Shown here: one piece after another, positions 38,542 through 61,232 of the stretch
How the letters are laid out: each line of letters opens with the position of its first letter
How positions within the stretch are numbered: position 1 is the first letter of the stretch
Notes under the pieces: model-generated
Database searches by the model: none
What the model saw: the letters and a program-made list of their open reading frames with translations, nothing else
Told to the model about the DNA's origin: nothing
Assembly (NCBI RefSeq): GCF_023223645.1
Contig: NZ_JALKBY010000009.1
Location: 1-64,000 of the forward strand
Direction: 5' to 3'
From: Natroniella sulfidigena
GTDB lineage: Bacteria; Bacillota; Halanaerobiia; Halobacteroidales; Halobacteroidaceae
DNA: 64,000 nucleotides
Translations under genes and position numbers: made by a program

Positions 38542-39033
38542 TTGAAAAGAAAAAACCCTATTGTTGCTTTAGTAATTTTTTTATTGGCTATTGGCTTTAG
38601 CTTTATGCTCTATGGTATTCAAGAAAGTGAAAATCTTCATTTTTCACTCTTAGGCTTCATAGGAGGCTCTTCTACACAAACACTAGAGGAAGTCGATAAA
38701 TTCAAACTAGAAGTAGAGCTTAATAATAATGAAAAAATTGATATGTTATTCCATGAATCTCAAAAAGATTCCTCTGCAAAGGTAGTAAAGAAGGTAGGCA
38801 ATCAAGTAGAACAGATTACTGATGAAGAAGCTTTAGAAGAGATAGATGGTATTATTGAAAGCTTACCACATCCTACTGATAGCAAGCCGTTGGCCCTTAT
38901 TGAGGCTGTTTTAGAAGAATTAAAATTCGAACAAGAAAGCATTAAAGATTTTGAGCTTAAAATGCATTTAGCTAATGGAGACAAAATCAAGGTGGAACTT
39001 GAATTAGATATCAAAAAAGCAATTCAAAAATAA
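38542..39033 (+). CDS. Hypothetical membrane-anchored protein
   Basis: A 163-aa protein with TTG start after AAAGGAG. One N-terminal transmembrane segment (about 6-25) anchors a charged outer or cytoplasmic domain with two related strands (VDKFKLEVELNNNEKIDML near 50 and IKDFELKMHLANGDKIKVEL near 135), suggesting an internal duplication. Function unknown. It is the last gene before the tRNA-Trp fragment that marks the island edge. Confidence 0.65.
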   Translation: MKRKNPIVALVIFLLAIGFSFMLYGIQESENLHFSLLGFIGGSSTQTLEEVDKFKLEVELNNNEKIDMLFHESQKDSSAKVVKKVGNQVEQITDEEALEEIDGIIESLPHPTDSKPLALIEAVLEELKFEQESIKDFELKMHLANGDKIKVELELDIKKAIQK

Positions 39034-39086
39034 AAAATCTGCCCTCTCGGACAGTTACCTAATCTTGCTATGTAAACAAATAAAAT

Positions 39087-39130
39087 TGGCACGGGAAGCA
39101 GGACTTGAACCCGCAACACCTGGATTTGGA
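39087..39130 (-). pseudogene. 3' fragment of tRNA-Trp (attachment-site scar)
   Basis: The minus strand reads CTCCAAA (anticodon loop, CCA for Trp), TCCAG, then a complete T-arm (GCGGG TTCAAGT CCTGC), acceptor 3' strand TTCCCGT, G and CCA at 39087-39089. The 5' half is absent: upstream of the loop the sequence no longer pairs and becomes unrelated. This is what remains when an element integrates within a tRNA gene and displaces the 3' end. CCA points left, so the inserted DNA lies to the right. Confidence 0.75.
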
Positions 39131-39224
39131 GTCTGGCTAAGATAGTTTTTTTGAGATAATTTGACAAAAATAATGCCGATGAAGCCTATAAATTCGTTTT
39201 TTATTTACCAATAATTACATTGTA

Positions 39225-39275
39225 TCAAACTATTGACGCCGAGTTTGGCGACACCATGGCGACAATTTGACGTCA
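39225..39275. other. TGGCGACA direct repeats next to the tRNA fragment
   Basis: TGGCGACA occurs at about 39246 and 39257, 11 bases apart, flanked by TTGACGCCGAG and TTGACGTCAC. Short directly repeated motifs near an att core are often integrase arm sites. No integrase gene is present nearby. The gap 39034-39332 holds otherwise only the tRNA fragment. Confidence 0.3.
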
Positions 39276-39298
39276 CACTACTTCTCTTCATCTACAAA

Positions 39299-39332
39299 AG
39301 ACCTTCTAGGAATTAAACCTAGAAGGTCTCTT
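39299..39332 (-). terminator. Terminator after hepT
   Basis: AGACCTTCTAGG pairs with CCTAGAAGGTCT, followed by TTTT on the minus strand. Confidence 0.85.
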
Positions 39333-39746
39333 CTATTCTATATATTCTTTAAACCAATTAAATAGTATTTCTATATCCTTTAAATTTTTAGTTAAGATAG
39401 CAAAGATAATTTCATCATCAAAATTAGCATAATCATGAACAATTACATTTCTGAACTTGGCCATCTTGATATAATTATCAGCATTATCTTTAATTATATT
39501 ATTTTCTACTAGAATTCTAATAATATCTGCATTAGTATTAGCTACTCCTAATCTTTCATCACTAATAATATGGCTTCCTATATCAAGACAAGATTCAATG
39601 GCCAACTGTAAAGTTCGTTCAATAAAACGCTTGACTAACTTATCGTTTTTATATTTAATAAACTTGATACCTTCATACTCTTTTAAATCATTAATATACT
39701 CCTCTAATTTTAATAACCTTCCCTTAACTAATTCTCTATCAACCAT
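39333..39746 (-). CDS. hepT: HepT-like HEPN-domain toxin
   Basis: A 137-aa HEPN-family toxin, usually an RNase. The defining R-x4-H is present in FRNVIVHDYANF (about 108-118), which also includes the Tyr that the MntA partner can AMPylate. Start ATG 39746 lies inside the 3' end of mntA (8-base overlap), so antitoxin and toxin are coupled. The pair forms a MntA-HepT toxin-antitoxin module at the left edge of the defence island. Confidence 0.9.
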   Translation of the reverse strand: MVDRELVKGRLLKLEEYINDLKEYEGIKFIKYKNDKLVKRFIERTLQLAIESCLDIGSHIISDERLGVANTNADIIRILVENNIIKDNADNYIKMAKFRNVIVHDYANFDDEIIFAILTKNLKDIEILFNWFKEYIE

Positions 39747-40152
39747 GAGTAAACTCCTTTCCTGCCTGCTCTTCATATTGATCATAAAAATATCTCATAT
39801 CAAGGTATTGAGTAACTGCTTTACTTTCCTCTCTAACCCTTAACTTATTATTCTTTCCTATAATTAAATCTCCTTTAATAATCTGATGCTTTAATCTTAA
39901 ATCAGCATTAGAAAAGATAACAACATCAACTTCAACTCCCAATGATTTTTCTAAATCTAAAGCAATCTCTAATTTCAAATCAAAGGCTTCTAATTTATCT
40001 AAGTTAGGATTAAGCATAAGTGCTATATCTACATCACTATTTTGATTGAAAGTACCTCGGGCCAAAGAGCCAAAAAGATAGACTGCTACTATATCTTGAT
40101 TTTGGCTACAATACTTGCGAATGATTTCTACTACTCTATCCTTATCGAGCAT
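39739..40152 (-). CDS. mntA: MntA-like minimal nucleotidyltransferase antitoxin
   Basis: A 137-aa minimal nucleotidyltransferase. VYLFGSLARGTFNQNSDVDI holds the GS-x(n)-DxD active site, and a third acid lies in GVEVDVVIF. MntA AMPylates the HepT toxin and so silences it. ATG lies just after GGGGAGGAGATAAG. A second, decayed copy of the gene's first two-thirds lies at 42225-42534, within a repeated block. Confidence 0.92.
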   Translation of the reverse strand: MLDKDRVVEIIRKYCSQNQDIVAVYLFGSLARGTFNQNSDVDIALMLNPNLDKLEAFDLKLEIALDLEKSLGVEVDVVIFSNADLRLKHQIIKGDLIIGKNNKLRVREESKAVTQYLDMRYFYDQYEEQAGKEFTHG

Positions 40153-40167
40153 CTTATCTCCTCCCCT

Positions 40168-40284
40168 CTAAAAACCCCTAAAGGCCTCTATATCCTCAGA
40201 AGTTAAAGACTCTAGCATTAACCTAAGCTTTTGGCTTGTAATATTCTCTTCAAGCCAATCCAGGATTATTTCTTCATAATTATC
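40168..40284 (-). pseudogene. 38-codon C-terminal ORF fragment, unrecognised
   Basis: An open stretch with no start, directly behind a TAG, ending DNYEEIILDWLEENITSQKL, then LRLMLESLTSEDIEAFRGF-like helical sequence (residues overlapping at RLML). It lies in the part of repeat copy 1 that copy 2 lacks. Probably the remains of a gene lost from this locus; family not recognised. Confidence 0.3.
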
Positions 40285-40443
40285 CTACATTTAACTTTGC
40301 TACTCTTTCTATACTTATTATGGCATTACTTACGTAATTATATGAACTTACTTTATTAATTAACCAAAAAATATTACTCTCCTTCATCATGGAGAAGCAT
40401 ATTATCTTAAATGCATAACTTACTTAAGGTAAATAGGACATTA

Positions 40444-40590
40444 GCGTGATGACCAGCCTTGCAATAAAAAACTATCACCATAAAAGATGATAGTCTGATT
40501 AAATCAAATATTCTCTTTTTAAGATACTGGTCATGACGCTTTTATTAGAAGATGTGATTCAGGAGTGCTTTTCTCCTGAACTACATCTTC
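40444..40590. repeat. Structured palindromic element, copy 1
   Basis: Two hairpins in series. The first pairs GCGTGATGACCAG (40444-40456) with CTGGTCATGACGC (40527-40539) around an inner ACTATCA/TGATAGT stem. The second pairs GAAGATGTGATTCAGGAG (40548-40565) with CTCCTGAACTACATCTTC (40573-40590). The same element recurs at 42727-42873. It lies downstream of the DUF3307 gene and upstream of mntA, both on the minus strand. Confidence 0.7.
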
Positions 40591-40614
40591 CATTTTATGC
40601 TGGTGTTGGCCCGT

Positions 40615-41469
40615 TTATTGAATTAAATCATAAAATATAAATCTAGCATCATAACCTTCTAAACCAATAATTAAATTTAATAATAAGCCAATAACTATTC
40701 CAATCAATACACTAGCCAAAGTCCCGACTATATAATAATCAACAAAATCTTTATCCTTAAAATTATTAAATCTAGCTACTGATTTAGCAGCAAAAACCAG
40801 AGAAATAGCACTATAATCTCTTCCTAAAACTAAAGTTAAAATTAATAATCTTTCTAACTTTCCAATTAATTCTCCTGGATTATCAGTATTAGCATTTATA
40901 ATATCATTATCTTTACTTATAAATTTATCTAAGGTCAATCTAACTAATATTGAACCAAACTTCCATACTAAAACATAACCAGAAATAACTAAAATAATGA
41001 TATATAGATCTTTAACAGTTATCTGATCTAGAATAGGAAACAGTTCAATTAATTTATTATTAAGATATCTGCCAACAAAATTCAACCTGATATTTTCTAA
41101 GAAGGTGTAGGTTCCAATTAATATTATCAAGTGTAAAATTTGATCTATAATAAACAACCTGATATCAGTAATAATATTTTTAATCCAATTCAAGTTATTT
41201 TTTCCAGAATGTAATACTTTATCTTCTATACTTATCTTAATATAATCTATAACTAAATGTGAAACTGCTATTAAAAATTGAATTATAACTAACCTCTGTG
41301 AAGCGTAAAAACTTGTAAATAAAAATAAAGTAATAAAAACCATAAACGAATGTAAAAGTAAACTCTTTGGCTCTTTCTTCTTCCTTTTGGCCAGTCTATC
41401 ATCTTGAATTATAAAATCTGCTATAATATGAGCCAATATAAAAATAGAAACTATTAATTTTGCTCCCAT
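40615..41469 (-). CDS. DUF3307 family membrane protein
   Basis: A 284-aa integral membrane protein with about seven helices. The N-terminus LAHIIADFIIQDDRLAKRKK followed by LLLHSFMVF is the DUF3307 signature. The family is nearly always next to a SatD-type gene, as here. Function unknown. ATG behind GGAGTGATTTA. Its stop lies at the very edge of repeat copy 1, so the last codons abut the repeated block. Confidence 0.82.
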   Translation of the reverse strand: MGAKLIVSIFILAHIIADFIIQDDRLAKRKKKEPKSLLLHSFMVFITLFLFTSFYASQRLVIIQFLIAVSHLVIDYIKISIEDKVLHSGKNNLNWIKNIITDIRLFIIDQILHLIILIGTYTFLENIRLNFVGRYLNNKLIELFPILDQITVKDLYIIILVISGYVLVWKFGSILVRLTLDKFISKDNDIINANTDNPGELIGKLERLLILTLVLGRDYSAISLVFAAKSVARFNNFKDKDFVDYYIVGTLASVLIGIVIGLLLNLIIGLEGYDARFIFYDLIQ

Positions 41470-41493
41470 TAAATCACTCCAATCATACTTTTC

Positions 41494-41548
41494 ATATAGA
41501 TTGTGTAGTCTATATTTTAAAATATAGATTGTGTAGTCTATATTTTAA
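41494..41548. repeat. Two tandem 28-base palindromic repeats
   Basis: ATATAGATTGTGTAGTCTAT followed by ATTTTAA occurs at 41494-41520 and 41522-41548. Each unit can form an ATATAGA/TCTATAT hairpin. The second unit includes the last codons and stop of satD. Perhaps an operator or an attenuator between the two genes. Confidence 0.65.
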
Positions 41549-42188
41549 TTCTGTTGAAATTAGCCAGATAATTATTAATACTATTTTCTGCTTTTTGAAT
41601 CTGATGATATAGTGATTGAGCTAATATTTTACTGACTGTTGCTTGTGTAATATCTAACTTCTTTGCAACTTCTTTTTGATTATTAAGTTTTTTATATAAA
41701 GAAACTACCTTCTGCTGACGATTTGTCCTAAATTCTTTATTGGACTGAATGAAATAAATTAACGAATTAATTAGATCATCTACTGCTTCCTCAAATGAAT
41801 AACAGATACTTGGTTTCTTCTTTTTGGCTTGTTTAATCATCTTTCTAGCTCGATGATAAGCTGGCCCATCTAATTCCCAAGTTGTTGGCTCATCTGGAAT
41901 TTCAGTTGAGATACTTCCTACTCCTACTCCAAAGGTCAACTCTAAAGGTGCTATCTCCTTTTGCAGGTCTTTAATTAATTGATAACTTCTAGTAGGATTA
42001 GCAAGTAATCCTTGTACTTCGTCACCTGCATAGATTGAAAATTTTGCTACTAACTCTCTTTTATATTTTAGATTTATCTTGTCAATAGCTTTTTCAAGTT
42101 TATCTTTTGCATCATTACGCCGATCTATCTTTTTTGAATTTACTATATCAGCAATTATAGCACAATAATCTTTCTTTTGCTCCTTCAT
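41538..42188 (-). CDS. satD: SatD family protein
   Basis: A 216-aa SatD-like protein. The N-terminal half, starting YCAIIADIVNSKKIDRRNDA and including FSIYAGDEVQGLL, resembles a nucleotide-cyclase-like fold. The C-terminus holds a helix-turn-helix (about 165-195, NNQKEVAKKLDITQATVSKI). It probably regulates or signals together with the DUF3307 membrane protein. ATG behind GAGGTGG. Confidence 0.8.
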   Translation of the reverse strand: MKEQKKDYCAIIADIVNSKKIDRRNDAKDKLEKAIDKINLKYKRELVAKFSIYAGDEVQGLLANPTRSYQLIKDLQKEIAPLELTFGVGVGSISTEIPDEPTTWELDGPAYHRARKMIKQAKKKKPSICYSFEEAVDDLINSLIYFIQSNKEFRTNRQQKVVSLYKKLNNQKEVAKKLDITQATVSKILAQSLYHQIQKAENSINNYLANFNRIKI

Positions 42189-42224
42189 AATTCCACCTCA
42201 CTTGTTCTCTTCTACTTTAAAATT

Positions 42225-42534
42225 TTATTATTCTTTCCTATAATTAAATTTCCTTTAATAATCTGATGCTTTAATCTTAAATCAGCATTAGAAAAGATAA
42301 CAACATCAACTTCAACTCCCAATGATTTTTCTAAATCTACAGCAATCTCTAATTTCAAATCAAAGCTTTTACTTTATCTAAGTTAGGATTAAGCATAAGT
42401 GCTATATCTACATCACTATTTTGATTGAAAGTACCTCGGGCCAAAGAACCAAAAAGATAGACTGCTACTATATCTTGATTTTGGCTACAATACTTGCGAA
42501 TGATTTCTACTACTCTATCCTTATCGATCATCTT
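42225..42534 (-). pseudogene. Decayed second copy of mntA
   Basis: Nearly identical to mntA over the first about 100 codons: it starts MIDKDRVVEIIRKYCSQNQD and retains GSLARGTFNQNSDVD. A one-base deletion near 42366-42375 shifts the frame, and the 3' third is missing beyond 42225. There is no hepT after it. It lies within repeat copy 2. Confidence 0.85.
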
Positions 42535-42726
42535 ATCTCCTCCTACCCTCTAAAAACCCTGCAAAGATCTCTATTAATTTTGCTACTCTTTCTATACTTA
42601 TTATGGCATTACTTACGTAATTATATGAACTTATTTTATTAATTAACCAAAAAATATTACTCTCCTTCATCATGGAGAAGCATATTATCTTAAATGCATA
42701 ACTTACTTAAGGTAAATAGGACATTA

Positions 42727-42873
42727 GCGTGATGACCAGCCTTGCAATAAAAAACTATCACCATAAAAGATGATAGTCTGATTAAATCAAATATTCTCTT
42801 TTTAAGATACTTGTCATGACGCTTTTATTAGAAGATGTGATTCAGGAGTGCTTTTCTCCTGAACTACATCTTC
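42727..42873. repeat. Structured palindromic element, copy 2
   Basis: Same two hairpins as at 40444-40590, with a single change in the first stem (CTTGTCATGACGC), which leaves one mismatch. It lies 3' of the gene at 42932-43438. Confidence 0.7.
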
Positions 42874-42931
42874 CATTTTATGCTGGTGTTGGCCCGTTTA
42901 TTTAAACTATTAATAGTCAACCTAAGATGAA

Positions 42932-43438
42932 TTAACATAAATCCCTAAAATTATCTATCATTATAAACTGCTTGAAAAATATTTCATCTAGCTCCTTATC
43001 CATTTCATAAAACTTTGGGATTAATAGCTTTGCTACTGTATTATTTTTACCAATACCAGTATCATTATTTTGAAAAAAATCATCTTCATTTTTAAACTTT
43101 CTTAAATATCTTTTCCACTCATTAATTTTTTCTTTTTTATCTTGAAGAGTACTAGATTTTTCTAAAATAGGAATCAAAGATGATACTATTTTGTTTATTT
43201 CTCCTTCTAATTCTTCAGTATATGCTATTGCAGTAGAAAATTCTATCATAGATGCATTAGAAGAACCTTCTTTTAATTTTTTTAGTTGCATCTCAATTCT
43301 AGCTAATTTTATATATGTTTTTGCTCTATGCTTATGAACAGATAAACCAGCTAATTTTTCCTCAAGTTCATTTTTTGTTTTTTCCAACTCTTTAACTTCT
43401 GTTATATCCTCGATTTTCTTCAACTCTTCTTTAGACAT
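42932..43438 (-). CDS. Hypothetical coiled-coil protein
   Basis: A 168-aa, Lys/Glu-rich, mostly helical protein; residues about 1-65 form a likely coiled coil. ATG behind GAGGAGG. No family recognised. It lies within the defence island but has no visible motif that ties it to defence. Confidence 0.6.
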   Translation of the reverse strand: MSKEELKKIEDITEVKELEKTKNELEEKLAGLSVHKHRAKTYIKLARIEMQLKKLKEGSSNASMIEFSTAIAYTEELEGEINKIVSSLIPILEKSSTLQDKKEKINEWKRYLRKFKNEDDFFQNNDTGIGKNNTVAKLLIPKFYEMDKELDEIFFKQFIMIDNFRDLC

Positions 43439-43830: not shown

Positions 43831-44288
43831 CCTCATCCCTATCTTTTAATAATGGATTACTTATAATTCTCTCCACTTCTCTTTCTCTGTCTTCATTACA
43901 CTCAATAAATCACTAAAACAATACTCAACCCGAGTTAAGTTCATCTTATCTAGACAGATTATATATATAAGCAGAAATATAAAAATTTATTTTGCTTTTT
44001 TATGTGATTTTTTATGATTATTATACTTCATTATGCATTTTTGTATCAACAAATAAGATGATATATCAGATTTATTCCTTTTTTTACTTCTGTTAACCCA
44101 TTTATAGCATATTTATCTTTCCTTTTATAAAAAATTTCTATAGATATCATACTTACAATATGTTTCTTTAATTATCCACATTACTCTTTCATATTCTATT
44201 AATATTTTGTTCTGCTAAAAATTTACTTATAAACATAAAAAGTTCGCCTTTCTAGTAAAAAGAATTTTATTATAATTATTTATAAGTA

Positions 44289-44327
44289 CATTATTTCTGA
44301 AAAACACTTGATTTTTCAGAAATAATG
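44289..44327. terminator. Perfect 16-bp hairpin after dptH
   Basis: CATTATTTCTGAAAAA (44289-44304) and its exact complement (44312-44327) surround a 7-base loop. It lies 45 bases past the dptH stop and should act as terminator or 3' RNA-stabilising hairpin for the dpt operon, though no clear T-run follows. Confidence 0.55.
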
Positions 44328-44371
44328 CACTATCCAGTAAAAACTTATTTACTTTTACAAGCTAAATCAAT

Positions 44372-47300
44372 TTAATATAAATTATTAAGTAGCTTACTAA
44401 CATCAAAGCCCATATTCCCATCTCTAATAAGTTTTTCTATCTTATTAACAGATGTATTAATATTTTCATAGCCATCGTTTTCTGTGAATTGTAAAATCAG
44501 TACATTATTGTTTTGGTTAGATTCATAAACTTTTCTATCATATTCATTTTTTTTAAAAGAAATAACTGCTCCATCATTTATATAATTATTTAATTCATTA
44601 TTAATTTCATATTTATCATTTAGTAATTTTTCTCTTAGATGATCATCAATTATTTTATCCCATTTTTGTTCTTCATACATTTTATATAATTTCATTTTTT
44701 TTGCACTAGCTAAAGCAAATTGCATTATAAAGTTTCTATAAAACTTATTATTGAAGTTATCACCAATTAAATATTCATCTAGTAGTTTTTTAGTTTTAAT
44801 AACTTGATTAACAGCTTTTTTAATGACATTGCTTCTACAATTACCTATCTTAACCTCTATAGGATAATAATGAATTTTTATTGGCTCTGCTTTCCACTCA
44901 ATCCCAACTAATAATAAATCATCACTATAAACACCACTTTTACGAGCATTGAATAATCCTTCACTTAACTTTAAACCAGTTCCTGCTGAGATTCTTAAGA
45001 TTTCTTCTAATGCAATAGGAATCCATAAAATTTCTTCATGATTAAAATAAGCTAATGCTACCTTTATAGCAGATATTATACTTATTTTTTCCCTAGAAAA
45101 TTGATTTTGATTAGAAATTAACCTCAATAACCAATTTCCATTAATTGCATTAAAATTATTAATAATTTTAGAGCAAGTATTTTCAAAAGTCTCAAGCTTC
45201 TCTGTTAAAAATTCATTTATAACCTCTTGATACTGGTTAGATCTTTTAGTAACCGTTATTGCATCATAGCCACTTGAAGACGTATACTGGTCACTATAAT
45301 GAATAATTAGTACATTATCATCATCTGATTCATCTTGAAAAAAACTCAAATCTACTTTGGGTTCTATAAAAGTAACCCAACGAGAATTTTTATAAATTTT
45401 ATCCAAGTCTTGTTTTTTTTCATTAGAAATAGTAGTAACAATACATTGTTCTTTCTCATATGGATCCATATTATTAGCAGTTCTCGCTAATGAATTTAAA
45501 TTAATTGCAGTCTTTAATAAAATGTTTTTATTATCTTCCTTAATGCACTTTGTCCCAAACCCTGTAAGATAAGAATTCTCATGATATACAGAAGATACTC
45601 CAGAAAATAATCCGTTTAATGAGATGCCAGTGCTTATATTATTCATGTTTCTATAAGTTGGTTCAAAATCTTCCTTCATTTCATAAAATGTAATATGACA
45701 ATATTCATAATTGTCTTCAAACTCATTCTTAAAATAAACATGTACATTCGCTCTAAAAATATCTAGTATATATGATTCATCATAATCATCAAAATTAGAT
45801 TGATTTTTAAATCGTTCTTTAACCTTTTCAATCTCATTATATAATGAAAACTCATTTGTTTTGTTATTATCATATATGTATATATCTACTGGTATTAATT
45901 TATCTATTTTATTATCTTTAAATTGTTGCTTATAATACTTCCAAATTGCTTCTAAAACTTCACTACAATTTCCCATATTGATTAAACCTATTTTTATTGA
46001 TGCTTTTTTTAAGGTGAATAAATAAGAAAAATGATTAGTGAATTCTGTAAGTTTTTCATTAACTAACTTAACAATAAATTCTCTAGAATTATTGTTGTTG
46101 TTTTTTCTTGCATTAGTATAATAAGTCCATTCTGGAGAATCGCACTGCCCAATAGGCTTACATATTTCACCTTTTTCTTTTTCAATATAAGGTAGCAAAC
46201 TAATTGGACTTAATCTCTCTAAAATTTTATTACTAATTTTTTCTTTTCCTATTTCCTCATTTAAGACAACTTGATAAGCTACATTTAAAGGATGTAATGG
46301 AGTAAAAATAATTTCTTTTTCACTTACTCCTCTTTCAATAGTCCCTATTTTCATTAAATTTCTTTTACAAGTTTCTAACGCATCTCCTGTTTTAATTTCA
46401 TTAATAGCTTGAAGATAACTATTAATATATTTTTTAGATAATTCAATCAGTTGCTCATTATAATGAGCTAGACTTGGCAACAATTTATTTTTTTTGTAAT
46501 ATTCAATTAAATTCTTATAAGATTCTTCTACTATATTATCTATTTGTAGTGACTGTTCTTTTAAATCATCTTCTTTATAAGATTGACTATAAAATAAAGC
46601 TCCTGATTTAATAATCTCATACTCTAAATTTAGATTATCCCTAAAAGGGGTTTTAGTAAAATATTCTTGATTCCCCTGGATTAATTTTTCTGTTTCTGAA
46701 TTATATTCAAAGTTTTTCTGTTTTTCCCTTTTAAATTTCCAAACATTTAATCCTGAAACGAATTTAGGTTTTTCTATTTCTTGGATAATAGTTAAAGGCA
46801 TAGAAGTATCTAAATAATTTAAATCAATATTTATTTTCTCAACTTCATTTAATTTTGATAAATCATTTTTTATTATAGTTTTATAATTTGGATTGTTGAT
46901 TTTAGCTTCAAAATCTTTTTGATCTATTATTATTTCTTTAGAACTATCTTCATTTGAATTGATAACTATTCCTTCATTACTTTTTATTTTAATCTTATTA
47001 TTATTCTGCCTAGCAGTTAAAGAATAATTAGTTTTTATATCTTGTAGAACAGTTTCATTACATTCTACTACAGCTATTCTCAACTGATGTCTTTTAGAAC
47101 CTTTATGCTTTATTTTTATTATAGCAAATGTAGTCTGATTTACTTTATGGTCAATTTTTACGTTTAATTTATTCTTATCATTATTCCGCCTACAACTACT
47201 TATATTATCTTCTGGCTTATACTCTGGTTTCTCTTTAATTAATCGATCAAATTTGAATTCCAAATTAATCTCTTTATTTTTTTTCGGGTTAAATACAATA

Positions 47301-48244
47301 ATGTGAGAATCCTTTTTTTTAATTCTTTCCCAACATTTAAGTCCCTTTTTAGTTGTTAATTCTTCTTTTTTTAAATATTTTATAGGACTAGCTTTCTTTT
47401 TATTATCTCTAGATTCCTTCACTTCACTATAAGAGACTTTTCCCCATTCTCCTTTAGATAATAAATCCACTCCATCATCATCAAAAGTTTTTTCTAACTC
47501 ATCCTCAATTGCAACATCCTTATACTCATAAATTTGGCTTACTTTTCTAAATAGTTTATTGTTATCTTCTAAACGCTTTTTCATAGCCTTTTCATTATAA
47601 GTATCTAACGTTTCATCAGGAAAAATTTCGAAATCAGAATATTTCTCTTTTGAGATTCCCCCCTTATAAATAACTTCTATTATATCCTGATAAGAAAATA
47701 AAGAGCTATAATCTTCTAATAAATTATCTCTCCTTTTTAACAATGTGAACTCTATTATTTTTTGATCTGCCTTTGATAACTCTTTTTCTTTCATTTGTTC
47801 TTTTATTTCTTTCTTAACAACTTCAAGGTGGAAGGGCATACCTTCTTTATAAAAGCTCTCTGCATCTTTAATACTATCTAGATCTGTGTGATCTATAAAT
47901 AAAATAATCTTGTCTCGTAATTTAGAATGAGTTTTTTTACCAACGCGATTTCTTAAATAAGTTAAAAAATGACTATGAACATTATTAGTAGTTGCTGCTA
48001 TAATTATTTCTTGATCATCTACCCTTATAAGATAAGAACTATAACTATCATTTTCTTCTTCTAACGGTAGATTAAAAGAATATGCACAATCTCTTTCCTT
48101 TAAAGCATTATATAATTTTTTTACTTGTTCCTTTTGATTAAACTGAATGTAAAAACGATCTCCAGGTTTCAAATCCTTACCAACAAAATAATTTTCTATC
48201 TGCTCTGATAAAAATTTATAAAATTTCTTTGACATATTGGGCAT
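44372..48244 (-). CDS. dptH: DNA phosphorothioation-dependent restriction protein DptH
   Basis: Large last subunit of the DptF-DptG-DptH restriction complex (about 1290 aa), which acts on DNA lacking phosphorothioate marks. Called from size, gene order and neighbours. I see no Walker A motif. Two segments stand out: KIILFIDHTDLDSIKD (about 113-130), like a Walker B strand, and VYSDDLLLVGIEW, followed after a hairpin by YYPIEVKIGN (about 1135-1170), whose D...ExK spacing fits a PD-(D/E)xK nuclease core. Start uncertain: ATG 48244 or ATG 48235 (GGTGAT before it). It overlaps the dptG end. Confidence 0.85.
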   Translation of the reverse strand: MPNMSKKFYKFLSEQIENYFVGKDLKPGDRFYIQFNQKEQVKKLYNALKERDCAYSFNLPLEEENDSYSSYLIRVDDQEIIIAATTNNVHSHFLTYLRNRVGKKTHSKLRDKIILFIDHTDLDSIKDAESFYKEGMPFHLEVVKKEIKEQMKEKELSKADQKIIEFTLLKRRDNLLEDYSSLFSYQDIIEVIYKGGISKEKYSDFEIFPDETLDTYNEKAMKKRLEDNNKLFRKVSQIYEYKDVAIEDELEKTFDDDGVDLLSKGEWGKVSYSEVKESRDNKKKASPIKYLKKEELTTKKGLKCWERIKKKDSHIIVFNPKKNKEINLEFKFDRLIKEKPEYKPEDNISSCRRNNDKNKLNVKIDHKVNQTTFAIIKIKHKGSKRHQLRIAVVECNETVLQDIKTNYSLTARQNNNKIKIKSNEGIVINSNEDSSKEIIIDQKDFEAKINNPNYKTIIKNDLSKLNEVEKINIDLNYLDTSMPLTIIQEIEKPKFVSGLNVWKFKREKQKNFEYNSETEKLIQGNQEYFTKTPFRDNLNLEYEIIKSGALFYSQSYKEDDLKEQSLQIDNIVEESYKNLIEYYKKNKLLPSLAHYNEQLIELSKKYINSYLQAINEIKTGDALETCKRNLMKIGTIERGVSEKEIIFTPLHPLNVAYQVVLNEEIGKEKISNKILERLSPISLLPYIEKEKGEICKPIGQCDSPEWTYYTNARKNNNNNSREFIVKLVNEKLTEFTNHFSYLFTLKKASIKIGLINMGNCSEVLEAIWKYYKQQFKDNKIDKLIPVDIYIYDNNKTNEFSLYNEIEKVKERFKNQSNFDDYDESYILDIFRANVHVYFKNEFEDNYEYCHITFYEMKEDFEPTYRNMNNISTGISLNGLFSGVSSVYHENSYLTGFGTKCIKEDNKNILLKTAINLNSLARTANNMDPYEKEQCIVTTISNEKKQDLDKIYKNSRWVTFIEPKVDLSFFQDESDDDNVLIIHYSDQYTSSSGYDAITVTKRSNQYQEVINEFLTEKLETFENTCSKIINNFNAINGNWLLRLISNQNQFSREKISIISAIKVALAYFNHEEILWIPIALEEILRISAGTGLKLSEGLFNARKSGVYSDDLLLVGIEWKAEPIKIHYYPIEVKIGNCRSNVIKKAVNQVIKTKKLLDEYLIGDNFNNKFYRNFIMQFALASAKKMKLYKMYEEQKWDKIIDDHLREKLLNDKYEINNELNNYINDGAVISFKKNEYDRKVYESNQNNNVLILQFTENDGYENINTSVNKIEKLIRDGNMGFDVSKLLNNLY

Positions 48245-49643
48245 CACCACTATCACTTTTTTTCTCTAAAATATTAAGTCTTTCATACAAATTTATAATT
48301 CTCTTTTTAGATTCTTTATCAAAAAACAAACCCCTATTCTCAAATTCTTTAAAAAGATTATTTTGACGAATTTTATTTTTATTTCCTATGCAAACATTAG
48401 TAAAAAATATCAAATACTCTTGATTTAACTTCAATCTATTCCCAAGACTTCCCCATGGCTGTAAAAATTCTTCTTTACAAAAATCTTTAAAACGCTTTTT
48501 ATATCTTCGATAGGCTTCATTGGTTGATGAACTATTTTTAAACTGAAAATTAATTACTTCAAACAACTCTTTTATTTTATCTTCAATAGAATCATTTATA
48601 TCATCTCCCTTATTGGGAAATTTACCCCAAGAAATTTTATTATGATAGTCTTTATATAACTTAATTAATTTATTTAATTCTTCAATAAATTGATCTTTTT
48701 TTTCATCACTCATGCAATTAATTACTTCCTTCTTTAACTCAGCATATAAATAAACTCCCTTATCATCATTACGACTATTTAAAAATTCCAAGCAATTAAC
48801 ATGTGAAAACAATTCTTCAATAACACCGTCTAGAATTCTCCATCCTTTTTCATAACTTTTTCTTGTTTTAGAACTTCTTTCCCAATCTAAATTAAAGTAT
48901 ATTGGATATGGTAACTCATTACCAGCTTTAGCAGTAAACATTTTACTTAGATGGATAGATAATTGGGAAATATAATAGAAATAATAATATTTTAATAATT
49001 TTTCAAAATAATCTTTATTAAACTTATCATCACTTAAAATAAATTCTAGGTCTTTATTAAATAAATCTATAATAAATGAAAGACACTTTTTATATTTATT
49101 GTTTTTCTGTTTATCATCCGTCTCCAAACAAGGCATTGAATCAATCATTAACTTAACTAATATATTATCATTAGATTCTTTATTACACATATCATATATA
49201 TTTTTTCTATTCTTATCATTTAATAACACATTATACAAAAAATTAGCAATTCTTTTTGGTTCTTTATTTTTTTCAATATAAATATAATTAAACGCTTTTG
49301 GATGAAAAATTTCTAAACTATGATCATCAAAAAACAATTTATTTATAAGGTCTCTTAACTGTTCCTTTAATTGTTCTCTGTTATTAGTTACTTCAACTTT
49401 TTTAATTACTGAGTTTATAATTTCATTTGGTTTATGTTCTTGATCTAGTACTTTACCAAATATTAATCGAAAAAACTCTGCTAAAATAAATTTAAAATCA
49501 AGACTACTTTTAGGAAAATGACTTGTTACATAGGGAAATATATTGGCTTGTTTTCCACTATCATGCTTAAAATTAATCCATTCTCCATCTTCTTTTATGA
49601 TATTAAAAGTATTCTTTATTCTTTCTATATCTAATACATTCAT
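48216..49643 (-). CDS. dptG: DNA phosphorothioation-dependent restriction protein DptG
   Basis: Middle subunit of the phosphorothioate-dependent restriction complex, 475 aa, largely helical and charged, without an enzymatic motif that I can see. Identity rests on length, on its position between DptF (with a P-loop) and DptH, and on linked dnd genes. ATG behind AAGGAGGTGAAG. It starts four bases after dptF and overlaps dptH, so the three proteins are made together. Confidence 0.85.
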   Translation of the reverse strand: MNVLDIERIKNTFNIIKEDGEWINFKHDSGKQANIFPYVTSHFPKSSLDFKFILAEFFRLIFGKVLDQEHKPNEIINSVIKKVEVTNNREQLKEQLRDLINKLFFDDHSLEIFHPKAFNYIYIEKNKEPKRIANFLYNVLLNDKNRKNIYDMCNKESNDNILVKLMIDSMPCLETDDKQKNNKYKKCLSFIIDLFNKDLEFILSDDKFNKDYFEKLLKYYYFYYISQLSIHLSKMFTAKAGNELPYPIYFNLDWERSSKTRKSYEKGWRILDGVIEELFSHVNCLEFLNSRNDDKGVYLYAELKKEVINCMSDEKKDQFIEELNKLIKLYKDYHNKISWGKFPNKGDDINDSIEDKIKELFEVINFQFKNSSSTNEAYRRYKKRFKDFCKEEFLQPWGSLGNRLKLNQEYLIFFTNVCIGNKNKIRQNNLFKEFENRGLFFDKESKKRIINLYERLNILEKKSDSGDAQYVKEIL

Positions 49644-49647
49644 ACAA

Positions 49648-51483
49648 TTACTTCACCTCCTTGAATTCATAATCTTCAAATTCCTTATTATAAACAAGTT
49701 TATATTTTTTTTCACTTCGTAAATGTTCAATATGCATTTCATCATTTATATTTTTGCTTTCCAATAATTCTTCTATAAATCGAACAAAATTAACAAAGTT
49801 GTTTCTGTCTTTTTTATTTGGTCGATATCCTTTATTAATTTTTTCTATTAATTTATATAATGAAAAATCTATAGATACTGTACTATTACTTCCAGGATCA
49901 GCTGTATAAGATAAATAAAAAACAGAGAGAAATTTATGTAATTCCTTCAAATCTTCTAGAGGAACTTCTTTATCAAATGATTTATCAAGTTTAGGACGAA
50001 TTTCTACTTCTTTACTTATTATATAATCAGATTGAATTTTCCCTGGTGAAATATTAATTAATTTATTTAAATTTCTTCCATTCCATGCATAAATAGTATC
50101 TTCTACTTTATTATAAAGTGATTTCAAATTCTTTTTTACTTCTTTATCATCATTATAATAGTACTTATTCCAATAATATAAATCTTTCATATAATTACTG
50201 TATATATCATCTTTTAAATTTAATAGGCCCGATTTAGGTATAAATTTATAAAAACGAATAAATGACTTCAAAAAAGTTTGCTTCAACTTTATTTCATTCT
50301 TTGCTACACAATCCTCTTCTAGTATATTCTCATTAATAAACAATCTTTTTAAATAATCATATTTTTCAAAATTGATATGCTCTTTAAACATTTCAGAAAT
50401 ACTTTTGATATTATTAAAACGTATGATTTTTTCATCTAATTCTTCTGTTCTTATTGTAATTGGATCTAATTTTGACATATTATTAAAAATAAAAGATAAA
50501 TCTTCATGTTCATATAAAGACATTGGAATTAAGGTGGAAATATACTTTATAAATCGTTTAAAATTAATATCTTTTTTTAAATCTTTATGTAAAGTTGATA
50601 TATTATAACTACATACAATAATATCATATATAAAATTTAATAAATCCCTTGTCGAAATAATTACTTTAAATTTAATCATTATTTGTATTAATAAATCAAT
50701 TATCTTTTTTCGAATACTTTCATCTTGTAGAAATTCATAATTAAATTTTACTGGACATTTATCTTTATATTTACAACTCTGACATCTCTCTTTATATTTT
50801 TTATAGAAAATATTAGTAGATTTTTTTTGTACAACTTTATTAAATAAATCTTCCATATATTTAGATCTTGGTCCTTCTTTTGTTAAATTATATAAATGAT
50901 AATCACTAAAATTTATAAATTGAAACTGACTACCTTTATCAAAGATTTCATTTTCTTTTTTAGGAGTTTTACTTAACTCTAAGATTTTTTTATCTTTTAC
51001 ATAAGCTTTTAATATTTTAAAGTCTTTTTCATATTCTGATTCGATAAAATTATTTAATGTTCCTAAATTAATTAAAAGAATAGTTTTTTGTTGAGAATTT
51101 ATATTTAAATTCTTATCAGAAAAATCTTTTAAAACTTTTTCCTTTAGAGTATCCTTATCAGTCTTTTTTGGTGAAAAACTTTCAGTAGCATCATTATGTA
51201 TATAAAAATTATCTTCATTTAAAATATCACTATGATGTTTCTTTAAATAAGAAATTATATGAGATTTTCCATCCCCTACATTCCCACAAACTAAAATCAG
51301 TTGAGATTTATCTAATTCATAAGACTTTTTTATTAATTCCATCAAGTCACCTTCAACTTTTCTTTTCACATGCATATATTCCTTGAAGTCACTAAGTGGT
51401 TCTAAATCTTCTATTGCTTCATTAGCAGACACTTTTATTTTCTTTAACTCTTCTATTAAACAACTATTAATTTCACTCAACAT
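49648..51483 (-). CDS. dptF: DNA phosphorothioation-dependent restriction protein DptF (ATPase)
   Basis: P-loop ATPase subunit of the restriction complex, about 611 aa. ILVCGNVGDGKSHIISYL (about 65-80) is the Walker A motif. CQSCKYKDKC (about 235-245) is a likely zinc-binding cluster, also typical of DptF. Start ATG 51483 behind AGGAAGG; a GTG two codons upstream is also open. First gene of dptF-G-H, with its own promoter, so it can be expressed apart from the four-gene module to its right. Confidence 0.9.
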   Translation of the reverse strand: MLSEINSCLIEELKKIKVSANEAIEDLEPLSDFKEYMHVKRKVEGDLMELIKKSYELDKSQLILVCGNVGDGKSHIISYLKKHHSDILNEDNFYIHNDATESFSPKKTDKDTLKEKVLKDFSDKNLNINSQQKTILLINLGTLNNFIESEYEKDFKILKAYVKDKKILELSKTPKKENEIFDKGSQFQFINFSDYHLYNLTKEGPRSKYMEDLFNKVVQKKSTNIFYKKYKERCQSCKYKDKCPVKFNYEFLQDESIRKKIIDLLIQIMIKFKVIISTRDLLNFIYDIIVCSYNISTLHKDLKKDINFKRFIKYISTLIPMSLYEHEDLSFIFNNMSKLDPITIRTEELDEKIIRFNNIKSISEMFKEHINFEKYDYLKRLFINENILEEDCVAKNEIKLKQTFLKSFIRFYKFIPKSGLLNLKDDIYSNYMKDLYYWNKYYYNDDKEVKKNLKSLYNKVEDTIYAWNGRNLNKLINISPGKIQSDYIISKEVEIRPKLDKSFDKEVPLEDLKELHKFLSVFYLSYTADPGSNSTVSIDFSLYKLIEKINKGYRPNKKDRNNFVNFVRFIEELLESKNINDEMHIEHLRSEKKYKLVYNKEFEDYEFKEVK

Positions 51484-51629
51484 AAACACCTTCCTAACAA
51501 ATATTAATTAGTGCTAGCCTCTAAACTAAATTTCATTTATTAACTGCTTGAAGGTTTTTGCAATACTCCGCTAGTAATTCAAATACAATATCAACTATCC
51601 GATTTTAAATATCATTAATTTTTCGATAA

Positions 51630-51659
51630 ATTTTATCTAACTATTTTATTTATTGTCAA
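51630..51659 (-). promoter_or_regulatory. Promoter of dptFGH
   Basis: TTGACA (51654-51659), an 18-base spacer and TAAAAT (51630-51635) on the minus strand, about 140 bases upstream of dptF. Confidence 0.65.
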
Positions 51660-51944
51660 CCTTATAATTACATATTCTATAATTAGTTCCAATTCCCTTG
51701 CTAATAATCTGATTTTTTTATATTAAAATTTACATTTCCAATTTGAGAAAATATAAATTAATATTATATAACTCGTTCTATGTATTTATTTGTTAATATT
51801 AACCAAAAAACAAAATTAAAAAAGATACAAAACTATCTTTAAATATGCTTCATGGGCTTAGAAACATTATAAATGATAATAATTTAACATTATAATTTAG
51901 TTACATAAATAAAGTTAATATATAGAATACAAAAAATCATATAA

Positions 51945-52045
51945 CTTATAAAAACAGACATCTGTACCTATCCCTAATAGACATATAATCAGGGACGACC
52001 TACCAGTTCTAGCGAACTCATCATAAAAACCTCGGATCGCTCATA
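51945..52045 (-). other. Structured intergenic segment with terminator hairpin
   Basis: On the minus strand this segment has more GC than its surroundings and several short hairpins in a row: GTTCGCTAGAAC, CCCTGAT...ATTAGGG, and ACAGATGTCTGT followed by TTTTTAT (51945-51965), a probable terminator. It lies after the small phosphorothioation-associated gene and before the dptF promoter. It may be a 3' UTR with terminator or a small RNA. No ORF is present in 51490-52141. Confidence 0.4.
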
Positions 52046-52141
52046 CAAAAAATTAAAAATCATTACTGTTTTCCATATAAGTTATTTTTAAAGTTTTTCT
52101 TACCTAATCACTTTTTGATAATATAGGATTATCAATTTATA

Positions 52142-52543
52142 TCATGAATAATTAACTAAAATTTCCTCAACAACATTAACAATTCCTTCACCTTGCTTAT
52201 TAACCAACTCATATAACTCATCTATCCCTGCATTAGCAAACTCCTCTATCAACCCTAAAACATCTGTACTTTCTAAAGCCTCTACATCTTGATAATAATC
52301 CAAGAAAATTGAATATAATAGCGTTAAATCATGTTCATTAAACACCCCCTTATCAAATATATCTCTTCCATTCTTAACCTCTCTTTTTTCTCCTGAATTA
52401 TAACCCATTATAGCTGCAACCATAAATATATCTTTCATACTAGAAAAAACAGAATCCCCATGAACATCAGACCCTTTTAATTCCCTAAATTTATTATGCT
52501 TTCCATCATCTATATATACTTTTCTTCTTATATATTCATCCAT
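52142..52543 (-). CDS. Small DNA phosphorothioation-associated protein (dnd_assoc_4-like)
   Basis: A 133-aa acidic protein. The N-terminus IRRKVYIDDGKHNKFRELKG followed by FSSMKDIFMVAAIMGYNSGEK resembles the family I recall as DNA phosphorothioation-associated protein 4. ATG overlaps the stop of the DndD-like gene (TAATG). Last of four coupled genes. Role unknown; a regulatory or targeting subunit is plausible. Confidence 0.7.
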   Translation of the reverse strand: MDEYIRRKVYIDDGKHNKFRELKGSDVHGDSVFSSMKDIFMVAAIMGYNSGEKREVKNGRDIFDKGVFNEHDLTLLYSIFLDYYQDVEALESTDVLGLIEEFANAGIDELYELVNKQGEGIVNVVEEILVNYS

Positions 52544-54495
52544 TATAAATCCCTCACTATTTTAGTATTTCCAGTTTGATCATTATATCTTAAGGTGTAT
52601 TCTTGATCAATTTTATTTTGTAACATTGCTCTATTATTTTCATCTAATTCTTCATCTGTTACAAATAAAACTAACTGTGATGTCAACTCTGGAATAGTAT
52701 CTACAATATTCTTTCTATGCTCACTATCTAATCTACCAAAAGGAGTATCCATAACTAATGGAGCTTCCCCCTCAGATACCTTAGAAAGTCCCAAAATAAA
52801 AGCTAAACTTAAAACTTGTCTTTCTCCAGCAGAAATCTCACTTCTAGAATCTTCATCACCAAATCTATCAACTAATTTCAACTGATAATCTTCATCTAAT
52901 ATAACTTTTGAAAAACTTTGTTTTTTTCGAATTAGTTTCTGAAAAATATCACTTGATTTCTCTTCTATTTTTAGTCTCATCTCTTCCGCAAACTTATTAT
53001 ATATATCCTCCAAAGCTTTAGAACTCTTTTCAGAAATTAACTTCTTTTGTTTTAAATCTTCCATTTCTTTTTCTAAAGATTTTTCTTTTTCTATCTCATC
53101 TTGAATTTCCTCGATATCATCTGATAACTCATTTATTTTATCTTCTAATATATTAATCTGTTCTTTAAGTTTACCCTTATCCTCTAATAAAGAGTTTCTT
53201 CCTTCCTCTAATTTTGATACATTTTCTCTTTCATTTTCAGTAAGTTGACTGCTAATCTCATTTTCCTGAGCTTTAAAATAATCTATTTTTTCTTGTAAAT
53301 TTCTAATTTTGTTATGCTTTTCTCTAATATCTTTTAATAAATCATTCTTCTTCTGTATTACTGCTTTAAGGCTAGCTTTTAAGTCTATTAAGAAACTTTC
53401 ATTACTTTCTTTTTCACCACCTTTAGAAATCAAATCTACTAATTCCCTATATTCATTTGTACCTCTCTCAATATCTCTACCACAAATACAAATTTCTTCT
53501 TTGATGATTTTTTGACATAACTTTTTTAATGTCCCAGAAGGTATCTTATTATCTTTTACTATATTATCCAGAAATTTTTCCATATTATTTAATATTTTAG
53601 ATCCAAAGATTATACTTGACTTAGAAAGATTATCTTTTAACTTGTTTTTATATTCTTTTAAATCATTCTTTAATCTCTTTATTTCACTTCGGATTTTATT
53701 TCTTCGATCTATTAAATCTTTAATTTCTTTAATTTCACTTTGCTTTTTCTCAATCTCATTAATCTGTCTCTGACATTCTTTTAACTCATCTTTCTTATCA
53801 TTCAATTCATTTAATTTATTTTCTTTTTCCCTCTTATATTTTTCTTCTTTATTTAATAGTACCTTTAAATTTCCACTACTATAATTTTTAAGTTCTCTAG
53901 AATATTCATAAGCTATATCTTTAAAATGTTTCTTTCCTCTTTCAATAACTTCTAATTTAAGTACATTTCTAACAGCATTCCAGACTTCATCTTTATGCTC
54001 AGGTCTTGCAAATTCATCAATCTTTTCTCCATCAAACAGAAAATAATTTCTAACATTAGATGGTAAAATTAAATTCAATTTAATTAAGGGATCTGGTACT
54101 TTCTCTTGGCTATCAGATCCACGATTAATCTCAAACATCTCTACTTCACTTGAACCTTGTGAAATATAACTATCCTCAGCTTCTTTTTTAACACTAATTC
54201 TTCTTATCATTAAATAACTGCTTGTCCTATGTCTAAAATTAATTGAAACTTTAACTTCTACATTTGAATTAATATCAGCTTCTTTTAAAGCATTCTTATT
54301 TACAATTTGTCCTTCAATATCTATAACATTTTCTCCATATAAACACCAATTAATAGCCTTAAAAAAATTAGTTTTCCCCGCTCCATTTTTACCATTTATT
54401 ATAGTTACATTTTTTTCTCCCAATCCAGAAAATTTTACTTCTTGTTCCCCATAATACTGCTTAAAATTCAATAACTTCATAGAATTAATTATCAT
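52543..54495 (-). CDS. DndD-like SMC-type ATPase of the helicase module
   Basis: A 650-aa ABC/SMC ATPase. Walker A GKNGAGKT (35-42); a long coiled coil (about 190-540) interrupted by a Cys pair (EEICICGRDI) at the hinge, as in zinc hooks; signature ISAGERQVLSLAF (about 560); Walker B PLVMDTPFGRLDSEHR. It resembles DndD but belongs to the leftward module; the true dndD lies at 58842. ATG overlaps the preceding 56-codon gene by 11 bases. It probably opens or scans DNA with the PLD-helicase. Confidence 0.85.
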   Translation of the reverse strand: MIINSMKLLNFKQYYGEQEVKFSGLGEKNVTIINGKNGAGKTNFFKAINWCLYGENVIDIEGQIVNKNALKEADINSNVEVKVSINFRHRTSSYLMIRRISVKKEAEDSYISQGSSEVEMFEINRGSDSQEKVPDPLIKLNLILPSNVRNYFLFDGEKIDEFARPEHKDEVWNAVRNVLKLEVIERGKKHFKDIAYEYSRELKNYSSGNLKVLLNKEEKYKREKENKLNELNDKKDELKECQRQINEIEKKQSEIKEIKDLIDRRNKIRSEIKRLKNDLKEYKNKLKDNLSKSSIIFGSKILNNMEKFLDNIVKDNKIPSGTLKKLCQKIIKEEICICGRDIERGTNEYRELVDLISKGGEKESNESFLIDLKASLKAVIQKKNDLLKDIREKHNKIRNLQEKIDYFKAQENEISSQLTENERENVSKLEEGRNSLLEDKGKLKEQINILEDKINELSDDIEEIQDEIEKEKSLEKEMEDLKQKKLISEKSSKALEDIYNKFAEEMRLKIEEKSSDIFQKLIRKKQSFSKVILDEDYQLKLVDRFGDEDSRSEISAGERQVLSLAFILGLSKVSEGEAPLVMDTPFGRLDSEHRKNIVDTIPELTSQLVLFVTDEELDENNRAMLQNKIDQEYTLRYNDQTGNTKIVRDL

Positions 54496-54655
54496 CGGCT
54501 ACCACCTCATCAATAATTTCTTTTAAATCTTGTTTAATACCTACTGGATTGATAAGACTAATCTTTTCTTCTTCCTTCTCTAATGCTTTTAAAACTGTTT
54601 TCTTTATTTTATCTTCATAAGCATTTAATAGTTCTTCAATTCTTTTATTACTCAT
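54485..54655 (-). CDS. 56-aa helical protein of the phosphorothioation module
   Basis: A small gene with ATG three bases after the helicase stop (site GAGGTG) and an 11-base overlap with the next gene. The product starts MSNKRIEELLNAYEDKIKKT and is entirely helical and charged. It resembles the short proteins annotated as DNA modification system-associated. Its tight coupling on both sides shows it is real. It may bridge the helicase and the ATPase. Confidence 0.75.
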   Translation of the reverse strand: MSNKRIEELLNAYEDKIKKTVLKALEKEEEKISLINPVGIKQDLKEIIDEVVADDN

Positions 54656-54658
54656 ATA

Positions 54659-56716
54659 TTACACCTCATCTAATAAATTATAGTAATTGGCCAAATCAAA
54701 TATTTTCTTTCTAGCTTGATACTTGTTCAAAGAAATATCAGCAAATTCTTTAAATCTAGCTAATTCCCTTCTCAATATAGATCTAATAGAAGATATATCC
54801 CCCATTTCATCAGGTGGAATTGCTATAAAATCATAAATGGTTGCTTTTTCTTTTCCAGGATATTTCCTTAATACCCGTCCTCTTCTTTGAATAAATTCTT
54901 TTGGATTACTACTACTAGAAAGTATATAAGCCTTCTTAGTAGCTGGAACATTAACCCCTTCATCAAGACAATGCATTGCAACTAATACTCCAATATCTCC
55001 ATTCGCAAATAATTTTAAGATCCTTTGCCTCTCTCTATTATTCTCTCTAGCGGTAAATCTTTGATAAAATACCCCTTGATTATTTAAAACATCTTGAATA
55101 TTATCCATTTGATGATGAGAAGTATAGACTAAAGTATATTTTAAATCTTGTTCTCGTGAAATCAAATTTCTAAACTTTTCAATTTTATTTTTAGCTGAAT
55201 TAACTATACCTGATCTTTTTATCATTAAACCAGTTAATGTTTCGTCATCTTCAGCTACCCCACTGGCTAACATTTTAGCTATCTTTACAGATAACTCTTT
55301 ATAATTTTCAAATTCTTTATTCGTCAATTCAATTAAGATAGGATGATATTCATATGGAGTTAAAAACCCTTCATCAATTGCTTTTTCTAAATCATAACTA
55401 AAAGTTACTCCATTAAAATAATCGTATAATATTTTAGTGCCATCTTCATCATGCCACCTCTTAGGGGTTGCACTTAATCCAATCCTCCCAATAAAATTAG
55501 ATTTTAAAATTGATCTTCTACAATTTGAACCTAAATGATGAACTTCATCTCCAATTAAAAGTACTTTTACCTTATCATCTATTCTATTAATTGCTTTTTC
55601 AAAGGTTTTCATAGAAGCTGTTGTAACCGTTGTTATTACAAATTCACATTTTGAAATTCCAATATTTAAATCAACTATTCTTCTAATTAGCTTATTTTCC
55701 CATAACTTTTTACTTTTATAGCAATTAATCACTCTATAATTAAATTTATTTAACTCTTCTTCCCATTGATCCACTAAATGTTGATAAGGACAAACTATTA
55801 TTATTAATACCTCTTGGTTGTCTTTTATAAATTCTTCAGCACATAATATACTAGTAATTGTCTTACCAGTACCTGTGGCCATCTCAAATAAGCCCTTATA
55901 ATTATTTTCTTTCCAGTTATTAATAGCTTCTAATTGGTAATCCCTTGGGGTAATATTATTTTCTTCTTTATATTCGGGTGAATTTTCTTTTACCTTTGAT
56001 GGATTTAGTTTATAAATCTTATTAATCGGTTTAGAAGGTGCTATTTTTATTAGTTTTCTCTTGGATGCTTCTGGAAAATCATAAACCTCAACTCCTAAAG
56101 AAGAATTATTCCATAATCTTCTAAAATACTCTATTCTTTTTTTTACTCTTTTCTGTAACTCATTTTGCCAACTCCAAAATACATCAATAGATTCAAAGTT
56201 ATATATCCAACCATTAGAAGATTCATTTAAAGAGCCAGAAAATACAACTTTATCTCCTTCTTCATCTGTAAAAACCCCAAACTTTTCATGATACATACTG
56301 TTGTAATTTTTATAATTATCATCCTCTGGCTTTCTAATAGCTATTTTTATATCTAAATATCCTTCTTTTATTAACCAAGAAAGATTTTTTATATTTGCTT
56401 TATCTGAATCATTTAATAATAAATCAACTTTTTTATTCAAATTTTCCCCAATAATATTTTTCATCTTATAGCCTTTTTTTAAAGAAACCGAATCCTTTTT
56501 AGATAATTGAATACTACATATTAATCTCATCCTTCCATTATTCTTAATAAATTGATATAAACCATTTGAAATATAATTTATTATGGAAGAATTAAAATAT
56601 CCAACAGCTCTATCATATCTTATTGAGTTAGCTAAACAAGGTATGTAAAATTCAGAAATCAAATCATTATCTCCAGTTCTATAATTTTCTTCCAAATTTA
56701 TATCTTTTAAGCTCAT
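54659..56716 (-). CDS. PLD-nuclease/DEAD-helicase, DNA phosphorothioation system restriction enzyme type
   Basis: A 685-aa fusion. The N-terminal phospholipase-D-like nuclease domain has YHEKFGVFTD and SGSLNESSNGW (about 150-190), the H-x-K...D...GS-x-N pattern. A superfamily 2 helicase follows with MATGTGKT, GDEVHHLG, GLSATPKRW and QRRGRVLRKY. This matches the family called DNA phosphorothioation system restriction enzyme. Start ATG 56716 behind GGAGG (an open frame runs to 56749). First gene of the leftward four-gene module, opposite dndC. Confidence 0.88.
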   Translation of the reverse strand: MSLKDINLEENYRTGDNDLISEFYIPCLANSIRYDRAVGYFNSSIINYISNGLYQFIKNNGRMRLICSIQLSKKDSVSLKKGYKMKNIIGENLNKKVDLLLNDSDKANIKNLSWLIKEGYLDIKIAIRKPEDDNYKNYNSMYHEKFGVFTDEEGDKVVFSGSLNESSNGWIYNFESIDVFWSWQNELQKRVKKRIEYFRRLWNNSSLGVEVYDFPEASKRKLIKIAPSKPINKIYKLNPSKVKENSPEYKEENNITPRDYQLEAINNWKENNYKGLFEMATGTGKTITSILCAEEFIKDNQEVLIIIVCPYQHLVDQWEEELNKFNYRVINCYKSKKLWENKLIRRIVDLNIGISKCEFVITTVTTASMKTFEKAINRIDDKVKVLLIGDEVHHLGSNCRRSILKSNFIGRIGLSATPKRWHDEDGTKILYDYFNGVTFSYDLEKAIDEGFLTPYEYHPILIELTNKEFENYKELSVKIAKMLASGVAEDDETLTGLMIKRSGIVNSAKNKIEKFRNLISREQDLKYTLVYTSHHQMDNIQDVLNNQGVFYQRFTARENNRERQRILKLFANGDIGVLVAMHCLDEGVNVPATKKAYILSSSSNPKEFIQRRGRVLRKYPGKEKATIYDFIAIPPDEMGDISSIRSILRRELARFKEFADISLNKYQARKKIFDLANYYNLLDEV

Positions 56717-56749
56717 ATAATTCCTCCATATTATAAAATTAAAAATCAA

Positions 56750-61227: not shown

Positions 61228-61232
61228 TAATA

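Follow-up and report, generated by a model that had tools for sequence, protein, structure and literature searches.

How did a DUF3307 gene and a satD gene come to lie between two copies of an mntA block, and what might the two genes do together? We addressed these questions in a 64,000-nt stretch of the Natroniella sulfidigena genome (here, the window). The initial annotation had placed direct repeats at 39845-40619 and 42225-42902. Both were present, with an outer end 3 bases longer than described. The two copies are arranged head-to-tail, in the orientation of mntA:

39845 to 40622, minus strand: copy A, with most of the intact mntA, an upstream open reading frame (ORF) remnant and a hairpin element
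42225 to 42905, minus strand: copy B, with a truncated, frameshifted mntA fragment, part of the ORF remnant and the hairpin element

Full alignment showed that A and B are homologous rather than unrelated insertions, with 14 differences in 677 aligned bases (97.9% identity), in keeping with their description as still very alike. Several indels also separate them. About 100 bp of the upstream gene remnant (about 40186-40291) is present in A and deleted from B; a 3-nt GTA is absent from A only, near 40164, just upstream of mntA; and B has a 1-nt deletion inside mntA, at A position 39986. The inner limits of the two copies differ. When the genome was searched for more copies of the block, none comparable to A and B was found. 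Repeats do break contigs in this assembly, and IS-like ends stand at several contig ends, as would suit an assembler that had doubled one block. This is extremely improbable, however, because 14 substitutions plus indels fit neither chance nor a doubled read. In addition, both blocks are internal to a 124,872-bp contig, and each copy shares with a related genome (G001, see below) bases that the other has lost. The direct repeat is thus real, yet an ordinary recombination scar.

The genes in and next to copy A are as follows:

39333 to 39785, minus strand: hepT, type VII toxin of the RNase HepT family (NCBIfam NF047751, 112.9 bits, cut-off 60; PF01934)
39739 to 40152, minus strand: mntA, type VII antitoxin of the adenylyltransferase family, intact (NCBIfam NF047752, 85.6 bits, cut-off 60)
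40170 to 40390, minus strand: ORF remnant upstream of mntA, frameshifted here

By the NCBIfam equivalog models, the copy A locus is a full HepT-MntA member of the type VII toxin-antitoxin (TA) systems, and the MntA motif GSX10DXD and the HepT motif RX4H are both readable in it. In this family, the HepT toxin is neutralised via adenylylation by MntA (PMC7641770). In contrast, copy B is a dead mntA fragment: its frame ends after about 58 codons, and the last ~35 mntA codons and any hepT are missing, leaving it without the intact mntA and hepT of a type VII locus. The blocks had been said to share most of mntA and its upstream hairpin. The hairpin and the homology are real, but B holds no working mntA. 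Nor was an mntA-hepT locus duplicated, as had been proposed; only a decayed mntA piece and the region upstream of it are doubled. The ORF remnant is 76 aa long in G001; over its C-terminal half it corresponds to part of an ATPase-like protein of ~560 aa encoded in two other genomes.

A single-block relative, named in the initial annotation as a check, was found. It is G001, the one genome on which our same-genus comparison is based. Positions 39026-40595 of the window align to the G001 block at 95.6%, and this block is located in the same island, with the genes at 38542 and 35435 represented by homologues on one flank and the gene at 63567 by a homologue on the other. The island cargo in G001 consists of type I restriction-modification-like genes and a Dam-like methylase (our ORF reading), and that in the window of dndFGH, PbeA/PbeC and dndCDEA. 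The locus belongs to a defence/toxin-antitoxin island. SatD and DUF3307 had no match in the whole G001 genome. Between the window and G001, mntA and hepT together are 98.4% identical, and six neighbouring genes are 79-93% identical. Since the TA genes exceed their neighbours in identity, transfer or recombination of the block itself between lineages is probable.

Three further observations concern the island. At 39089-39136 on the minus strand, we noticed a fragment resembling the 3' half of a tRNA-Trp gene, from the anticodon loop to CCA; ARAGORN made no call for it. The fragment also adjoins the block in G001 and is probably a remnant of the island integration site. Positions 44372-62381 contain dndFGH, a PbeA/PbeC-like module and dndCDEA together; by their gene content, these would be one modification set accompanied by two restriction modules linked to phosphorothioation. 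A 20-bp inverted repeat (44285-44331; 95% complementary, 7-base loop) lies downstream of the dndH-like gene and is probably a terminator.

Each block carries a hairpin element upstream of mntA:

40420 to 40615, minus strand: dispersed modular hairpin element, copy A
42703 to 42898, minus strand: dispersed modular hairpin element, copy B
40469 to 40496, minus strand: terminator-like hairpin, copy A, directed towards mntA (consensus scan)
42752 to 42779, minus strand: terminator-like hairpin, copy B (consensus scan)

The element is modular, comprises several hairpins and folds at -88.2 kcal/mol, far more stably than shuffled sequences (z = -6.8). It is low-copy and dispersed in the genus: this genome has copies or pieces in A, in B and on contig C29, and G001 has them at three sites. 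An Rfam search of 38.9-44.4 kb yielded no family at a credible score; thus, the element is not a described RNA family. Relative to the fuller C29 copy of G001, the elements in A and B have an internal deletion in common. Because the terminator-like hairpin points towards mntA, mntA-hepT is probably transcribed separately from DUF3307.

Could the hairpin element be mobile and have brought in the block or the pair, in the manner of a composite transposon? Its copies are dispersed in two genomes, and in four contexts they share one outer end (GGTGTTGGCCCGTT), exactly where the A/B homology stops. Against mobility, the ORFs at 39333-43438 include no transposase in or between the blocks, so that neither the flanking repeats nor the cargo have the enzyme of a composite transposon. 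As noted above, A and B have different inner limits, and no target-site duplication was established. We consider such mobility very improbable. Separately, we rejected the element as part of an IS: the transposase beside the C29 copy in G001 has its own multi-copy end, which begins about 35 bp beyond the hairpin element.

The event had also been described as recent. At 16 of about 176 positions in the hairpin element, A and B share a base that G001 lacks, and at 1 position A and G001 agree against B, which supports this description. It calls for caution, as in mntA and the upstream remnant A, B and G001 are about equidistant (5/6/6 sites). The contrast between the element and the remainder gives a Fisher p of 0.0002, on few sites. 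Relative to the divergence from G001 we regard the event as recent, and give it no date. On one reading, the duplication is younger than this split and B has been evolving freely as a pseudogene. On another, the copies are older and the hairpin element was homogenised later. The latter reading would suit two mntA blocks that arrived independently in one hotspot, with later gene conversion of the element, a history to which the site contrast lends some weight. It is nevertheless quite unlikely, given the few sites, the free evolution of a pseudogene in B and the appearance of the G001 element, which, set against the other element copies, seems to be the one that has decayed.

Between the blocks are the two genes expected from the initial reading, as confirmed by their Pfam matches:

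40615 to 41469, minus strand: DUF3307 gene, predicted helical membrane protein (PF11750, 65.9 bits; model pLDDT 88.5)
41538 to 42188, minus strand: satD, cyclase-fold domain and C-terminal helix-turn-helix (HTH) by model and fold searches (PF16264, 112.3 bits)

The DUF3307 stop codon is inside the sequence common to A and B. We surveyed 101 genomes, our own included, and confirmed most adjacencies at the ORF level. DUF3307 was present in 23 of these genomes and was located beside satD in 21 of the 23; either gene order occurs. Thus, the same two families are adjacent here as in 20 other genomes examined, but here they are flanked by mntA blocks. A haloarchaeal (Halorientalis) plasmid also carries the pair. 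Since the pair is complete elsewhere without the mntA block, satD-DUF3307 is a module independent of that block. No match to SatD was found in a search of phage genomes, and neither protein matched the PADLOC 2023 profiles at E 0.001. Our literature searches returned no paper joining SatD with DUF3307, and none on SatD and cyclases that concerned this SatD protein. As side observations, the pair of a Candidatus Frackibacter genome (G008; L041 4214-11665) is near RlaP, DUF6036 nucleotidyltransferase and JetD_C/DUF6063 (Wadjet-like) genes. In another genome (G010; L039 1-234 and 3201-3614), a remnant of the satD 3' end, accompanied by phased dyads, is located ~3 kb from an mntA with no hepT next to it; RlaP and HD-domain genes occupy the interval.

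These data bear on how the pair came to its place. That DUF3307-SatD was carried along when a resident locus duplicated is probably not what happened, as the G001 block is without the pair and the pair occurs elsewhere without the block. Since the G001 block has no pair beside it, we also regard an in-place tandem duplication, in which the pair already stood beside mntA-hepT, was copied head-to-tail with it and then lost one cargo and one hepT, as unlikely. The head-to-tail arrangement, the high identity of the copies and the closeness of A and B in the element would agree with it. However, extra losses (of a second pair and of hepT) are needed, and no second satD or DUF3307 remnant is present; SatD has a single match in the genome.

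We favour entry of the pair by recombination. A resident mntA-hepT block would have met incoming DNA in which satD-DUF3307 was joined to another copy of the block or a part of it. The product, all on one strand, would be the intact mntA-hepT of copy A, the pair, and a broken, decaying block in copy B. We infer this route from the repeat and its decay; from the one block, the different cargo and the lack of SatD and DUF3307 in G001; from the elevated identity of mntA and hepT over their neighbours; and from the stand-alone nature of the pair. Two points count against it: no donor molecule with both the pair and an mntA block was found in the genomes examined, and A and B are not resolved as sisters in mntA, for which three copies were compared.

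What could the pair do? In the SatD model (pLDDT 87), a beta-alpha-beta-beta-alpha-beta core precedes a helical HTH region. The best Foldseek matches of the model were class III cyclases, among them Rv1900c at E 8.9e-5; the Panoptes mCpol OptS (E 2.9e-4) and a cUMP synthase (listed at 1.7e-3 or better) were also matched. VIA-align superposed the model on GTP cyclohydrolase III with a Z of 11.8 and an rmsd of 2.1 over 111 aligned residues. SatD is thus predicted to combine a nucleotidyl-cyclase/GGDEF-type palm with an HTH, and the model contains both the palm and the putative metal-binding Asp positions of the nucleotidyl cyclase superfamily. Asp14 follows strand 1, and Gly55-Asp56-Glu57 are located at the turn between strands 2 and 3. 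All 31 sequences that have a residue at position 14 retain the Asp; Gly-Asp is conserved in 32/32 single or first domains, and Glu57 in 35 of the 36 domains. In fold and in the placement of Asp14 and Gly-Asp-Glu, SatD resembles class III cyclases, GGDEF proteins and GTP cyclohydrolase III. It differs from them in its extra HTH and at the sequence level, where a search against PDB chains found only HTH proteins and no cyclase-type chains. Similarly, Pycsar and Panoptes also have a small cyclase-fold enzyme (predicted for SatD) encoded beside a membrane protein gene, but SatD is distinguished by the HTH, the phased DNA dyads described below and the lack of a PADLOC match.

Four loci (L062, L063, L068 and L028) encode tandem SatD-SatD fusions, the domains of which keep complementary halves of the motifs. 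The first domain keeps Asp14 and GDE and has lost a later DGxAFxRA-type motif; the second keeps the latter and has lost Gly-Asp. Adenylyl cyclases can build a single active site from two unlike domains, as do the C1 and C2 halves of the animal enzymes. By analogy, the motif split in tandem SatD may resemble these halves.

The DUF3307 model is confident and nearly all-helical. It had no fold match in the PDB at E <= 0.001 and only weak matches in BFVD, the best being a viral DUF3307 protein. In an alignment of 21 sequences, His14, Asp18, Gln22, His71, Asp75, Asp109, Gln110 and His113 are invariant or nearly so, and the conserved His and Asp residues suggest a metal site.

The gap between satD and DUF3307 holds two identical dyads, spaced 28 bp apart:

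41494 to 41515, no strand assigned: 22-bp dyad, candidate operator 1
41522 to 41543, no strand assigned: 22-bp dyad, candidate operator 2, overlapping the satD stop codon

A genome scan for the 22-bp pattern matched only these two sites. In all seven close loci, this gap contains repeats with 28- or 29-bp phasing (shuffle p no higher than 0.013 per locus), with sequences that differ between several loci, whereas the regions upstream of satD in the same seven loci contain no comparable repeats. Two of the four tandem-SatD loci have 29-bp phasing ahead of DUF3307, the leading gene in these loci. Tightly coupled satD-first loci mostly lack phased repeats in front of the operon. More distant satD-DUF3307 pairs have almost no gap, which leaves no room for such dyads, and none are found there. 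The SatD HTH likely acts on DUF3307 transcription via the candidate dyads.

The fold and the dyads are computed, and they lead us to a working model in which SatD would sense or make a nucleotide, bind the phased dyads via its HTH and set DUF3307 expression. The fold matches, the conservation of Asp14 and Gly-Asp and the phased dyads of the close loci argue for this model; the distant pairs argue against it. The joint explanation, with entry of the pair by mntA-block recombination and control of DUF3307 by SatD and the dyads, we judge to be about evenly balanced between right and wrong. More doubtful than probable, and offered tentatively, is the view that satD-DUF3307 is a widely distributed two-gene signalling module, in which a dimeric cyclase-fold enzyme or sensor with a DNA-binding domain would use the dyads to control a His/Asp-rich membrane protein, possibly in stress or phage defence.

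The 0.68-kb direct repeats would make the pair segment (about 2.28-2.38 kb) deletable by RecA recombination, and removal of satD and DUF3307 by an exchange between A and B is plausible, but no excised form was seen. Such a deletion would leave one block, as in G001, with intact mntA-hepT if the exchange fell upstream of the frameshift in B or if A sequence was restored there. Direct repeats that flank cargo differing between relatives are also seen in segmental duplication by homologous recombination at defence hotspots, from which this locus differs in nothing fundamental.

The duplication is therefore ordinary, and the satD-DUF3307 pair is the interesting part, as a computed lead. The repeat illustrates one way for a gene module to join a defence hotspot, through recombination with a resident TA block, and still be deletable. 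For SatD and DUF3307, two widespread families, there are now a predicted fold, conserved putative active-site residues, a candidate operator of conserved phasing and a fixed partner, and with these in hand simple binding and enzyme assays are feasible.
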